DNA of 64,000 nt, taken from assembly GCF_000814825.1 (NCBI RefSeq), contig NZ_CP009302.1, positions 1,860,001 to 1,924,000 on the forward strand. The letters are read 5' to 3'. Below are positions 42,732-47,177 of the stretch, piece by piece. Each line of letters starts with the position of its first letter. The first letter of the stretch is position 1. The position numbers and the translations under genes were made by a program. The notes beneath the pieces are model-generated. The model did no database searches. It was not told the DNA's origin and saw nothing but the letters and a program-made list of their open reading frames with translations. Source of the DNA: Berryella intestinalis. GTDB lineage: Bacteria > Actinomycetota > Coriobacteriia > Coriobacteriales > Eggerthellaceae.

Positions 42732-43904
42732 ATGGAGCGATTCTTCACCTCTCTGATGGGCTCCATGCCGCGCAGCGCCGAGCTCATGCGGGCTCGGCGC
42801 CTGCTGGCGGCAGGTCGCCTCGAGCAGACGGAGTACGACCTTCTCGTGCGCAAGGAGACCGAGCGCGTCGTCAAGCTGCAAGAGCGCCTGGGGCTCGACG
42901 TCATCGTTTCCGGAGAGATCGCGCGCGATAACTACGTGTCGTTCATATCCGAGAAGATCGGCGGCGTCACGCCGATGAGCATGGCCGATATGATGGACTA
43001 CGTCGAAGACAAGCGAGCCTTCGACGAGATCCTGGATACGCTGGATGTTCCCGCGGCCTCGATCAGAAACGCCATCTGCACCGGGACCCTCGAGTATCGG
43101 GGCGACATCGTGCTGGAGGAACTGCGACTGCTGAAAAGCCTCACCGACAAACCGGTGAAGATCACGCTTCCCGGGCCGTACCTGGTCACCCGAAGCATGT
43201 GGCTCCCTGCGCTCAGCACGCAGGGATATCCCGACAAGGAACGCTTGGGCGAGGCCGTGCTCGAGATCTACCGTCGGGAGATCAGCGCTTTGCAGGATGA
43301 GGGCGTCGATATCATACAATTCGACGAACCCGTCCTCACCGAAGTGGTGTTCACCGAGGGCAAGACGCGCACCTTCATGTGCGCCGCACTGTCCCAGCGC
43401 AAAGACCCGGCCGAAGAGCTCGAATTCGCCGCAAGCCTCATCAAGCGGGTCGTGGGCTTCGTCGATGAGTCGCGTTCCGTCTCAAGCTTGCATGTATGCC
43501 GCGGAAACTGGAGCCGCGACGAATCGATACTGCTCACCGGACCATACACCCCGCTGATCGACCTGTTCTCCCAGGCTGCGCCCCGCATGCTGGCACTCGA
43601 GTTCTCTACGCCGCGCGCAGGCGAACTGGATGCGTTCCTGAACGACCCGCGCATACGGGGAAGGTTCGCATTGGGGCTGGGCGTGCTCAACCCCCGCCTC
43701 GACCGGACCGAGCCCGTCGAATCTATGATGGAACGCGGGCGGAAAGCGGCACGCGCATTAGGCGCCGACAACGTGGCGCTCAACCCCGACTGCGGTTTCG
43801 CGACGTTTTCCAACCGCCCGGTAAGCACCTATGACCTTATCGAGCAGAAAACGAAGCGCATGGTCGAGGCATCGCGCAGACTGAGAGCCGAATTCCATGC
43901 CTGA
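42732..43904 (+). CDS. Core MetE-type (cobalamin-independent) methionine synthase-like methyltransferase
   Basis: 390 residues, matching only the catalytic C-terminal half of MetE (full MetE is about 750). The zinc ligands expected for homocysteine thiolate are visible: SSLHVCRGNW (His and Cys, near residue 255), an acidic residue in the barrel, and NPDCGFATF (Cys near residue 355). IIQFDEPVLTEV is the barrel motif near residue 197. Short MetE proteins elsewhere take methyl groups from methylcobalamin proteins or other donors rather than methyl-folate. Here the donor is unknown. It ends overlapping the next gene by eight bases. Confidence 0.87.
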   Translation: MERFFTSLMGSMPRSAELMRARRLLAAGRLEQTEYDLLVRKETERVVKLQERLGLDVIVSGEIARDNYVSFISEKIGGVTPMSMADMMDYVEDKRAFDEILDTLDVPAASIRNAICTGTLEYRGDIVLEELRLLKSLTDKPVKITLPGPYLVTRSMWLPALSTQGYPDKERLGEAVLEIYRREISALQDEGVDIIQFDEPVLTEVVFTEGKTRTFMCAALSQRKDPAEELEFAASLIKRVVGFVDESRSVSSLHVCRGNWSRDESILLTGPYTPLIDLFSQAAPRMLALEFSTPRAGELDAFLNDPRIRGRFALGLGVLNPRLDRTEPVESMMERGRKAARALGADNVALNPDCGFATFSNRPVSTYDLIEQKTKRMVEASRRLRAEFHA

Positions 43905-44412
43905 TCGAACCCACTCCCCGAAAGCGCACGACGCGCAACGACAAGCCGAGCCCGCTGTTCCGGAGTCGCAGCGCTTCACCGCGTCCTATCGCGCGATACG
44001 CACCGACGAGGCCGTAAAGGTCTACAACGGCGCCGGCATGAGGTCCGTCTCCCGCGTCCTCAGCTTCGACCCCGCAGACGAAGAATTCAGCGCACTCGAC
44101 GAATGCGCCTGCGCCATCCTGTCCGAGATCCTGCTTCTCCTCGGCGATGAGTTTCACCGCCGAGGAGAAGACCTGATGGACGTCGAAGCAAGGGCGCATG
44201 TAACCGTAGAGAACCCGTTGGCAGCCCTCGGCGTGCGCGGCGTCGAAGGCACTGCGCGCATCGCGTCGGTGCGCGTCGAAGCCTACCTGTTCACATTCAT
44301 GGACGAGCCGCAAGCTCGCACGGTGATCGACGGGGCGCTCGCGCGGGCAACCCTCTACCAAAGCCTGAAAGACGCCCTGTCCATCACCTGCCGATTCTCC
44401 CTAACCGAATGA
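43897..44412 (+). CDS. OsmC-like fold protein, atypical
   Basis: 171 residues; the start overlaps the methyltransferase gene by eight bases. The central helix with ALDECACAILSEILLLLGDE, the strands GVEGTARIASVRVEAYLF and the last helix-strand (ALARATLYQSLKDALSITCRF) follow the OsmC order. In OsmC peroxidases two Cys are required; the first position is plausible (ECACA), but the second, normally in a RCPxHRTL-like segment, reads RATLYQSL. So thiol peroxidase activity is doubtful and it may bind ligands or scaffold. This assignment is tentative. Confidence 0.6.
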   Translation: MPDRTHSPKAHDAQRQAEPAVPESQRFTASYRAIRTDEAVKVYNGAGMRSVSRVLSFDPADEEFSALDECACAILSEILLLLGDEFHRRGEDLMDVEARAHVTVENPLAALGVRGVEGTARIASVRVEAYLFTFMDEPQARTVIDGALARATLYQSLKDALSITCRFSLTE

Positions 44413-44437
44413 CCCGCTGAAAAAAAACCGCCCGATC

Positions 44438-44454
44438 ATTAACTGGCAGCTAAT
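44438..44454 (+). promoter_or_regulatory. Dyad operator candidate before the DUF5067/XRE/kinase operon
   Basis: ATTAACTGGCAGCTAAT is a 17-base dyad (ATTA-CTG / CAG-TAAT, one mismatched pair) lying 63 bases before the ATG at 44518. It could be bound by the XRE protein encoded two genes downstream. Confidence 0.55.
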
Positions 44455-44517
44455 GAATCGCATCCTCCCTTTCCCTAACATGGGCACCGTCATCTAACCT
44501 GGAAGGAAGAGGGAATC

Positions 44518-45270
44518 ATGGAACAACTTGGTTTTGCCCCCGATCAAAGGCCTGAGCCGACGGGAACGTCGGGATCGGCCATCGCCGCGCTGGTTCTCGG
44601 CGTACTCGCTTTGGCCAGCTCGTTCATCCCCATCGTGAACAACCTGTCGTTCATCTTCGCCATCGTGGGAATCATCCTCGCGATAGTCGGGCTGGTGGGC
44701 ATCAACAAGGGGAAGAAGACCGGCAAAGGCCTTGCCGTCGCGGCCGCCATCGTCAATGTCTTGGCCGTCGTGATCGTCATCGCCACCCAGAGCCTGTACT
44801 CCGCCGCAATCGATAAGGCCATGGAAAGCACCCAGGTCGAAAACGTCTCCGAGCAGGCCTCGACCCCGTCCGGCTCGACCGCGGGCGGCGAATCTGCGGA
44901 AAAGGCCGATAGCTCGAACAAAACCAAGTACCAGGTAACCATCGACGGCTCCGAGCTGATCCAGGACTACTCCGGCAAAAACGCGATCGTCGTCACGTAC
45001 ACCTGGAAGAATATGACCGACGACAGCACGTCGTTCCTTGCCAACGTAACCGCCCGGGCCTTCCAAAACGGCGTCCAGCTCGACAGCGCGATGGTGCGCG
45101 ACCTGGATAGCAGCAAGTCGCTGAGCCAGGTGAAGCCCGGCGCCGAGATCACCGTCAAGCAGGCCTACGAGCTGACCGATGCAAGCGAGGTGACCGTCGA
45201 GGTCTCTCCGCTGATCAGCTTGAACGGAGACAAGGACATCCTCGTCACGAAGAACTTCAGCGTTGAATAG
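44518..45270 (+). CDS. Membrane-anchored DUF4190/DUF5067-like protein
   Basis: 250 residues. Two hydrophobic helices (residues about 19-60, with GLVGINKGKKTGKGLA between) form the DUF4190-like anchor, followed by a third hydrophobic segment around 72-90. A serine/threonine-rich linker (105-135) leads to an extracytoplasmic immunoglobulin-like domain (residues 138-250, with IVVTYTWKNMTDDSTSF), which matches DUF5067. Such domains are found on surface or lipoproteins of gut actinobacteria and firmicutes with no known function. GGAAGGAAGAGGG precedes the ATG. Confidence 0.8.
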   Translation: MEQLGFAPDQRPEPTGTSGSAIAALVLGVLALASSFIPIVNNLSFIFAIVGIILAIVGLVGINKGKKTGKGLAVAAAIVNVLAVVIVIATQSLYSAAIDKAMESTQVENVSEQASTPSGSTAGGESAEKADSSNKTKYQVTIDGSELIQDYSGKNAIVVTYTWKNMTDDSTSFLANVTARAFQNGVQLDSAMVRDLDSSKSLSQVKPGAEITVKQAYELTDASEVTVEVSPLISLNGDKDILVTKNFSVE

Positions 45271-45320
45271 TACAATGCGGCGAGGGGGCGTTCGCCTCCC
45301 TCGCCTGCTTCGAGCATTGG

Positions 45321-45344
45321 AGCGCCGTACCGAGGTACGGCGCT
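45321..45344 (+). repeat. Hairpin before the XRE gene
   Basis: A perfect 10-11-bp stem (AGCGCCGTACC / GGTACGGCGCT) lies 51 bases after the DUF5067 gene stop. GGCGTTTAT follows, so it may terminate or attenuate transcription between the first gene and the regulator-kinase pair. Confidence 0.6.
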
Positions 45345-45415
45345 GGGCGTTTATAAGGCCCCGCGTGCGCAAGCGGCTGCAGTTTTCGTCCGCTTTCCAG
45401 CAAAAGGCATCGCCC

Positions 45416-45841
45416 GTGAACGAGCCCCTCACCGAACATCTCCTCTCCGAACTGGTCAATTCGCCCGATCCGAAGGCCTTCGTCGAAAGCCGCACGTTCG
45501 ATGCGCCCACCCTCACCGAATACCTGAACCGCCTGCTGCAAGACCGGGGCATGAAGTACAAGGAGGTCGCTCGGGCGGCCGACCTCGACGAAACCTACGC
45601 CTGGTACATATTCGCCGGACGCAGGAACCCGACCCGCAACAAGCTGTTGCAGATCGCGTTCGGCATGCGGCTCACCGTGCAGGAGACCCAGCGGCTTTTG
45701 CAGGCCGGGGGCATCAGCCGGCTGTACCCGAAGAACCGCCGCGACGCTATAATCATCTACTCCCTCCAAAAAGGCGCAACGCTGCTGCAGGCGGAGGGCG
45801 AACTTTACGGTTTCGGGGAACAGACGATCATCGAGAACTGA
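45416..45841 (+). CDS. XRE-family helix-turn-helix regulator
   Basis: 141 residues starting at a GTG at 45416, with AAAAGG upstream; the ATG at 45263 of the longer open frame would run through the hairpin and lacks a ribosome site. Residues about 38-95 form the HTH (YLNRLLQDRGMKYKEVARAADLDETYAWYIFAGRRNPTRNKLLQIAF). The remaining part is a small helical domain (LLQAGGISRLYPKNRRDAIIIYSLQKGATLLQAEGELYGFGE). It is four bases from the kinase gene, so the two are co-translated. The kinase may phosphorylate it. Confidence 0.85.
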   Translation: MNEPLTEHLLSELVNSPDPKAFVESRTFDAPTLTEYLNRLLQDRGMKYKEVARAADLDETYAWYIFAGRRNPTRNKLLQIAFGMRLTVQETQRLLQAGGISRLYPKNRRDAIIIYSLQKGATLLQAEGELYGFGEQTIIEN

Positions 45842-45845
45842 CAGC

Positions 45846-47177
45846 ATGCCCTCCATCGACACGAACGACCTCAAGCGATACCTGGCAAGCCTCGAGCGCG
45901 AGGACCGGTACCGCGTTGTCGACACCCTGAAAAGCACCGATGCCGAACGCACCGAACTGGTGTACCTTCCCGACTCCGTTCTGGAGGCGGACGCCCCCCT
46001 GCGGATGAAGCGGGGGTTCCAGCATCTGTACGTGAGGAAGTACATCGAGAGCGCCTCGCACCTCGGCAGCGCCTACCAGCGCATATTCGACCAACAGCAC
46101 AGCGAGGCCGATCCGCTGGAATCCGTCCCCCACGTGTACGAATGCTATGAAACCGACGAGCACCTGATCGTGGTCATGGAGTACCTGTCGGGCGAAACCC
46201 TCGATCGCGCCGTCTCGCGGCTGGGCGCGGGAAGCGACCTCGCGTGCAGGCTGCTCCCTCCCATCTGCGATGCGGTCGCATCCATCCACGAGCGGTTCGA
46301 CCCGCCGCTCATCCACCGCGACCTCAAGCCCAGCAACGTGATCGTCCAGGATGCGCGCGCCGTCCTCATCGACCTGGGCATCGCCCGCGATTTCAAAGAA
46401 GGTGCCGAAACGGACACCCTGCTGTTCGGGACGAGATCGTTCTCGCCGCCCGAGCAGTTCGGATACAAGCAGACCACGGTGCGAAGCGACGTGTACGCCC
46501 TGGGGATGCTGCTGTACTTCTGCCTGACGGGAACCATCCCCTCGGCCTCGACCCATGACGACCGCTTCCCCGGCGCCGATATCCCCGAGCCGATGCGCGC
46601 CGTGCTGATGTGCGCGACCGAGTTCGATCCCGAAAAGCGATTCGCGAGCGCCCGAGCCCTGAAAAACGCCTTCCTAAGCGCTTGCCCCGCGCATCCTATC
46701 CCCCGAAAAGCGCCCGGGTTGAGTGCGCCAGCGGCCGACGTCGCGGCGCCCTCTCCCGGCAATCGGCCCCTCGCAGCGGCGCCGTCCGGCACGCGGCGAA
46801 ACGCGCGTCGGGCACTCGGCAGGCGCTTCGCCCCCAAGCCGGCCGAACCGGAAAGGTTCTCCATCCTGGGAAAGATCTGGAACGGGCTGCTGGTCGCATC
46901 GCTGTTCGTGCTGCTTCTGGGCTGCTTCTCATCCTTCGTCAATCCGACGCCCCAGAACCAGGCAATGCCCATCTGGCACAACGCAATCGGGTTTTTGGTG
47001 GTCATGCCCGTGCTTTTCGCGTCAACCGCCCTGCTGATAGCCGACAAACGCAGGATCGCCGTGCGTTTCCCTGCGTTGCGCAAACTCAATTGGTGGAAGT
47101 GGATAGCTTCGTACGCGGTGCTGGCCTTCGCCCTCGTGTGCATCTTGGGGCTGATCCGCGTAATCGCCCTACGCTAA
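45846..47177 (+). CDS. Membrane Ser/Thr protein kinase
   Basis: 443 residues. Residues about 25-285 are a PknB-type kinase domain: Lys in YVRKYIE (K65), IHRDLKPSNVIV (H157, D159, K161, N164), the metal-binding IDLGIARDF (D176, DLG in place of DFG) and GTRSFSPPEQFG. A recognisable glycine-rich loop is absent (residues about 28-40). A proline/arginine-rich linker follows, then three hydrophobic segments (about 345-365, 380-400, 420-440), so the kinase faces the cytoplasm. Key catalytic residues are present and activity is plausible. Confidence 0.88.
   Translation: MPSIDTNDLKRYLASLEREDRYRVVDTLKSTDAERTELVYLPDSVLEADAPLRMKRGFQHLYVRKYIESASHLGSAYQRIFDQQHSEADPLESVPHVYECYETDEHLIVVMEYLSGETLDRAVSRLGAGSDLACRLLPPICDAVASIHERFDPPLIHRDLKPSNVIVQDARAVLIDLGIARDFKEGAETDTLLFGTRSFSPPEQFGYKQTTVRSDVYALGMLLYFCLTGTIPSASTHDDRFPGADIPEPMRAVLMCATEFDPEKRFASARALKNAFLSACPAHPIPRKAPGLSAPAADVAAPSPGNRPLAAAPSGTRRNARRALGRRFAPKPAEPERFSILGKIWNGLLVASLFVLLLGCFSSFVNPTPQNQAMPIWHNAIGFLVVMPVLFASTALLIADKRRIAVRFPALRKLNWWKWIASYAVLAFALVCILGLIRVIALR

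Follow-up and report, generated by a model that had tools for sequence, protein, structure and literature searches.

A putative autoregulated Ser/Thr signalling module of a membrane kinase, an XRE regulator and an operator-driven exported protein in Berryella intestinalis

A bacterial Ser/Thr kinase typically acts on many targets and has no obvious output gene. In the PknH-EmbR and PknK-VirS systems the genes for kinase and regulator are neighbours. Both are from Mycobacterium tuberculosis, where a Hanks-type kinase acts on a transcription factor according to the accessible part of a published account (PMC4601284), and the general kind, a Hanks-type kinase with a dedicated regulator, is known from these pairs. 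The locus of Berryella intestinalis described here was analysed within a window of 64,000 nucleotides (the whole stretch of DNA under study) and resembles both in that a Hanks-type kinase has a transcription factor partner, a partnership read here from conserved gene neighbourhood. The regulator is a 141-amino-acid XRE protein, whereas EmbR is recognised via an FHA domain and VirS belongs to another regulator family, and the operator, unlike in either system, is carried by the gene of an exported protein.

The PASTA kinases (PknB, PrkC, Stk1) likewise place a Hanks-type domain on a membrane anchor. In contrast, the module kinase has three helices and either no exported domain or another one; no PASTA repeat was matched in it at E 0.1 or better in Pfam, and it scores 99.7 bits on the NCBIfam model PknB_PASTA, whose cut-off is 450. 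With two-component systems the module shares a membrane kinase, a dedicated DNA-binding protein and a short regulon, but a Ser/Thr kinase and an XRE protein take these roles here, and neither a histidine kinase nor a receiver domain was found by Pfam in any of the three module proteins. The preliminary description knew of no system of this make-up; similarly, no account of the module, its composition, operator logic or exchangeable exported output was found in the accessible portions of the literature searched, subscription papers lying outside its scope.

Our preferred reading, at a probability of roughly 0.6, is an autoregulated Ser/Thr signalling module composed of the kinase, the XRE protein and an operator-driven exported protein. 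The broader proposition is a Ser/Thr counterpart of the two-component system in Coriobacteriales and Listeria, in which a membrane kinase without a glycine loop, a dedicated XRE protein and a single promoter with a dyad at -42 form a fixed circuit and the surface output domain is swapped between species; we regard it as evenly poised. Conservation of kinase, regulator, operator and target as a unit in dozens of gut species makes signal, phosphosite and output testable together, and the module provides the domains DUF5067 and DUF4190 with a first context.

The locus and its predicted proteins

The features of the locus are collected in Table 1. As the preliminary description had it, the three genes run in one direction, the coordinates leave four bases between the XRE stop and the kinase start, and the kinase carries membrane helices of its own, with predicted centres near residues 356, 389 and 433. 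Directly upstream of the module, at 43897-44412, lies the gene of a 171-amino-acid protein without Pfam or NCBIfam match, preceded in turn by a gene named by eye as methionine-synthase-like.

Table 1. Coordinates of the module and its regulatory elements (window positions, except for the window itself)
Feature	Position	Strand	Evidence or detail
Window	1860001-1924000 of 1.97-Mb genome	+	Berryella intestinalis NZ_CP009302.1
Operator dyad CATTAACTGGCAGCTAATG, centre 44446	44437..44455	.	8/9 arm pairs; consensus TTAGCTGNCAGCTAA
-35-like hexamer ATGAAT, overlaps right half-site	44453..44458	+	17-nt spacer to -10
-10 box TAACAT	44476..44481	+	30 bases from dyad centre
Gene 1 (DUF4190-DUF5067)	44518..45270	+	Pfam, AlphaFold, Foldseek
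Two stem-loops in the gene 1-XRE gap	45273-45319, 45321-45344	+	RNA fold z -2.69
XRE regulator, inferred start codon GTG	45416..45841	+	weak Pfam HTH, 104-sequence alignment, AlphaFold
Hanks-type Ser/Thr kinase, three C-terminal membrane helices (predicted)	45846..47177	+	Pkinase 4.9e-25, catalytic residues, helices

Gene 1 belongs to both DUF5067 (89.2 bits, cut-off 27) and DUF4190 (35.3 bits, cut-off 35), each above the curated Pfam threshold. Three predicted helices, corresponding to the DUF4190 membrane part, are followed by a C-terminal beta-sandwich, the predicted exported DUF5067 domain. The AlphaFold model has a pLDDT of 82, with the exported domain mostly above 90, and the best Foldseek matches to this domain were 3qfg, 4r4g, 3cfu and 2llg, which we take to be DUF4352-like lipoproteins; as modelled, its fold is the DUF4352-like beta-sandwich.

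The XRE protein belongs to the five-helix HTH_XRE fold by model and profile, although its Pfam score is below the cut-off (HTH_31, 23.4 bits versus 27). The AlphaFold model (pLDDT 90) comprises an HTH core and a disordered C-terminal tail. The HTH matches DdrO and C.Esp1396I, with a best Foldseek E of 0.005, and a profile match to 8bny was obtained at E 6e-4; Foldseek returned no good whole-length match to the model among solved structures. Its nearest named relatives come from Gordonibacter sp. Marseille-P4307, with 94% identity, and from Berryella wangjianweii.

The kinase scores 88.9 bits on Pkinase (cut-off 31.7). The catalytic lysine, the HRD aspartate, the asparagine, the DFG aspartate and the APE glutamate of Hanks-type kinases are all present, and K65, D159, N164, D176 and E203 are invariant in 101/101 kinases outside the type-2 paralogues, in agreement with the catalytic motifs noted earlier. 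The glycine-rich loop, also noted earlier to be missing, is replaced by LKxSxxETT in most non-type-2 kinases. Because its absence is a trait of the whole family, the kinase is taken, on its sequence, as a divergent yet probably active Hanks-type member.

Occurrence in Coriobacteriales and Listeria

A small protein, exported or anchored in the membrane, is co-conserved with the XRE-kinase pair. Searching 138 family genomes at E up to 1e-4 identified the XRE family in 106; it fell below threshold in 32, one of which holds a deletion remnant, and the module is therefore dispensable. In that genome (G011) the XRE search gave no match, and the locus (L250) retains the dyad together with a DUF4190 gene that is truncated and the membrane tail of the kinase. 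Gene 1 had matches in 91/138 family genomes and the kinase query, at 1e-20, in 119/138, many second matches being other kinases. In a sample of the phylum, the XRE profile matched 27 of 396 genomes, every one from the order of the window's genome, and a hand count of the listed rows gave eight genomes of this order without a match.

For a comparison of loci, 100 family regions and 80 named loci were combined and identical XRE sequences removed, leaving 125 rows. Kinship ignored, a kinase follows the XRE gene directly on the same strand in 116 of these, a DUF4190/DUF5067-type gene lies within 700 bases upstream in 74, and both arrangements hold in 73; by hand count, the upstream exported gene rises to 86/125 when FxLYD-like and Ltp types are included. 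The nine rows lacking an adjacent kinase are contig ends, masked stretches, rearrangements or extra XRE copies. An apparent XRE-kinase fusion (L098) and a gene 1-XRE fusion (L072) were dismissed as artefacts of masked N stretches. Within the window's genus the location of the module is conserved and its downstream flanking genes are kept. The co-occurrence elsewhere on which the preliminary proposal depended was thus found: the triad recurs across Coriobacteriales and also in Listeria.

Relatives of the XRE protein in Listeria records share 38% identity (E 2e-19). In L. innocua a kinase gene and a DUF5067 lipoprotein gene lie in that order, with the XRE gene divergent from the former; compared with the window, identity is 34% over 172 residues for the kinases and 35% over 99 for the DUF5067 parts. 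The Coriobacteriales dyad was not found in Listeria, and residue T137 of the XRE protein is not kept there. The kinase frame of L. monocytogenes spans 380 amino acids, which is also the length given for Lmo0618 in the accessible text of PMC4379056, and both are annotated as a kinase; length and annotation make Lmo0618 the probable kinase of the module in Listeria, where DUF5067 and XRE genes adjoin the kinase gene in the records. In the accessible text of PMC3091722, an lmo0618 insertion mutant shows an 11-fold drop in intracellular replication, and growth is attenuated for every in-frame deletion, lmo0618 included. Lmo0618 differs from the case described here in that its XRE gene is divergent and in that the accessible portions of the published work (PMC3091722, PMC4379056) treat the kinase alone, naming no XRE or DUF5067 partner. 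The module thereby offers partners for this little-studied second kinase of Listeria. Relatives of the XRE protein or the kinase are also carried by records of the Listeria phages LM 4-14-1 and LM 4-11-1 and by a 2.9-Mb 'plasmid' (NZ_CP030101), which are probably host DNA or mislabelled chromosomes.

The operator dyad, its promoter and its predicted reader

Dyads as good as CATTAACTGGCAGCTAATG are no rarity by chance, 20 positions matching in the 64-kb window; palindrome quality alone means little, and the significance of the element lies in its conservation across genomes. The exact consensus TTAGCTGNCAGCTAA is present in 63/138 family genomes, versus 1/138 for a reversed control pattern, and these sites lie mostly in front of the module. 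Among 94 distinct sites, TAnnnT is placed exactly 30 bases from the dyad centre in 73 (next best offset, 3/94), and most have an ATG[AT][AT][AT] hexamer (ATGAAA, ATGTTT or ATGAAT) 17 bases ahead of the -10 box. With a transcription start assumed seven bases beyond the -10 box, this fixed spacing puts the dyad centre near -42. In 40/94 sites no more than two positions of the -35 hexamer agree with the consensus, a poor fit suggesting that an activator is required.

In its own genome, TTARCTGNCAGCTAA occurs with 0-1 mismatch at this locus only, and a single further site with two mismatches is without a -10 box at the promoter spacing. A regulon extending beyond the module was considered from 20 exact TTAGCTGNCAGCTAA sites taken as outside it, the regions of which were inspected, and was rejected: most have no -10 spacing, while the L264 site belongs to a locus of the gene 1 type at the edge of a contig and the L250 site to the module remnant. 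Read from sequence, the dyad is the promoter-embedded operator of the module, in agreement with the operator placed ahead of the first gene in the preliminary description, and the autoregulation proposed there is very likely.

The protein that reads the dyad is suggested by eight loci (L122-L125, L131-L134) that hold a paralogous, type-2 XRE-kinase pair. The type-1 dyad, allowing two mismatches, is absent from 8/8 of these loci; they carry dyads of the TTCAGTTGNCAACTGA type instead, mostly with the same +30 spacing, in front of the XRE or kinase gene and of a downstream lipoprotein or membrane gene (at L123, before the XRE gene only). The recognition helix is also changed, reading PTVVYDIF versus ETFGYQIF, and helix and operator appear to have diverged together. 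Since the paralogues change both, binding of the dyad by the XRE protein, as a dimer, is strongly implied. The type-2 kinases have a predicted exported domain that matched no Pfam family, and a profile comparison linked these kinases only weakly to the gene 1 proteins (31% probability).

The exported gene, rival readings and a proposed circuit

After filtering for promoter spacing, 83 type-1 dyad sites stand ahead of a gene that fits the exported-protein models; the rest lie before another membrane or signal-peptide gene (8), an XRE gene (11) or other genes (2). Type-2 sites precede membrane or signal-peptide genes (5), kinase genes (4), an XRE gene (1), other genes (2) or no called gene (1). 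Where the exported gene is divergent it has a dyad site of its own (L097, L116, L118, L052 and L056, the last two loci carrying two sites), and at L158, where it lies downstream, the dyad accompanies it. The gap between gene 1 and the XRE gene has a median of 101 bases, and its hairpin is more than 5 kcal/mol stronger than in shuffled sequence in 45/80 loci (five simple shuffles each), the locus in the window likewise having strong hairpins there. The two stem-loops are a probable partial terminator or attenuator, so transcription of gene 1 probably exceeds that of the XRE-kinase pair. Because the dyad tracks the position of the exported gene, and because of these hairpins, gene 1 more likely acts as a regulated output, which may also feed back, than as a sensor alone.

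The exported domain itself varies between species. Pfam assigned DUF4190 to 50, DUF5067 to 43, DUF4352 to 30 and Ltp to one of 71 upstream proteins scanned, and five of ten more proteins from other loci had Ltp repeats (E below 1e-47); such repeats occupy the exported slot at L036, L048, L050, L082 and L174. The FxLYD-like type was assigned by eye, two such proteins being without Pfam match. The external sensor envisaged for gene 1 in the preliminary description is disfavoured by this variation and by a dyad that stays with the exported gene wherever it lies.

An unlikely but still sizeable alternative would nevertheless make gene 1 the sensor subunit of the kinase, so that a signal from outside passes through the kinase to the XRE protein and autoregulation only sets the amount of sensor. 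The exported domain is indeed anchored beside a membrane kinase, and 11 kinases have an exported domain fused to themselves, of which 0/11 have a same-strand upstream exported gene versus 77/95 of the others (Fisher 1.2e-7, from two clades only, kinship ignored and five rows near contig ends dropped). At most of those 11 loci, however, the operator drives an exported gene that is either divergent or located downstream; the apparent swap is positional, an exchange of the exported partner between cis and trans was accordingly rejected, and the stem-loops suggest a surplus of gene 1 product. The fused exported domains of the L116, L118 and L097 kinases are of a second, unrelated-looking kind, without Pfam match in L116 and L118.

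Ltp repeats are familiar from phage superinfection-exclusion lipoproteins, and Ltp blocks entry of phage DNA. Such repeats in the exported slot, together with PD-T4-6 as the best PADLOC match of the kinase (117 bits), could point to an anti-phage defence module, but matches to 33 PADLOC families were obtained for the kinase, as any kinase domain would be expected to give, and the module is found widely across the family with a conserved place in the window's genus; we consider this highly improbable. Slightly less probable again is a toxin-antitoxin-like pair in the manner of HipBA, with the XRE protein as repressor and the kinase as toxin. Such a pair would fit a small autoregulated XRE gene adjoining a kinase gene and the weak similarity of the XRE protein to the HTH of HipB and CapH. 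Against it, the kinase is Hanks-type rather than HipA, no HipA family appeared in its Pfam or NCBIfam matches, it has membrane helices, the operator is common to the exported gene, and the pair is widespread with its downstream flanks kept in the genus.

In the preferred signalling module, the membrane kinase would sense the state of the envelope, via its membrane helices or contact with the gene 1 product, and would phosphorylate the XRE protein. Phosphorylation would change transcription of the exported protein gene and, through leakage past the stem-loops, of the XRE-kinase pair too. The XRE protein could act as an activator touching RNA polymerase or as a repressor, at about 60:40, activation being favoured because of the dyad at -42 and the poor -35 hexamer. 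The exported protein would be the most likely output and may double as a partner of the kinase in feedback. Three threonines are conserved in the 104-sequence XRE alignment: T60 (104/104), T6 (103) and T137 (95). In the XRE model T60 stands at the start of the recognition helix, a position at which phosphorylation should prevent DNA binding, and T137, a candidate phosphosite, sits in the flexible tail. The genome also encodes a separate PknB-like kinase (L002, its PASTA nature assigned by eye) and one PP2C gene, approximately 4 kb from that kinase, which may reverse phosphorylation of the XRE protein.
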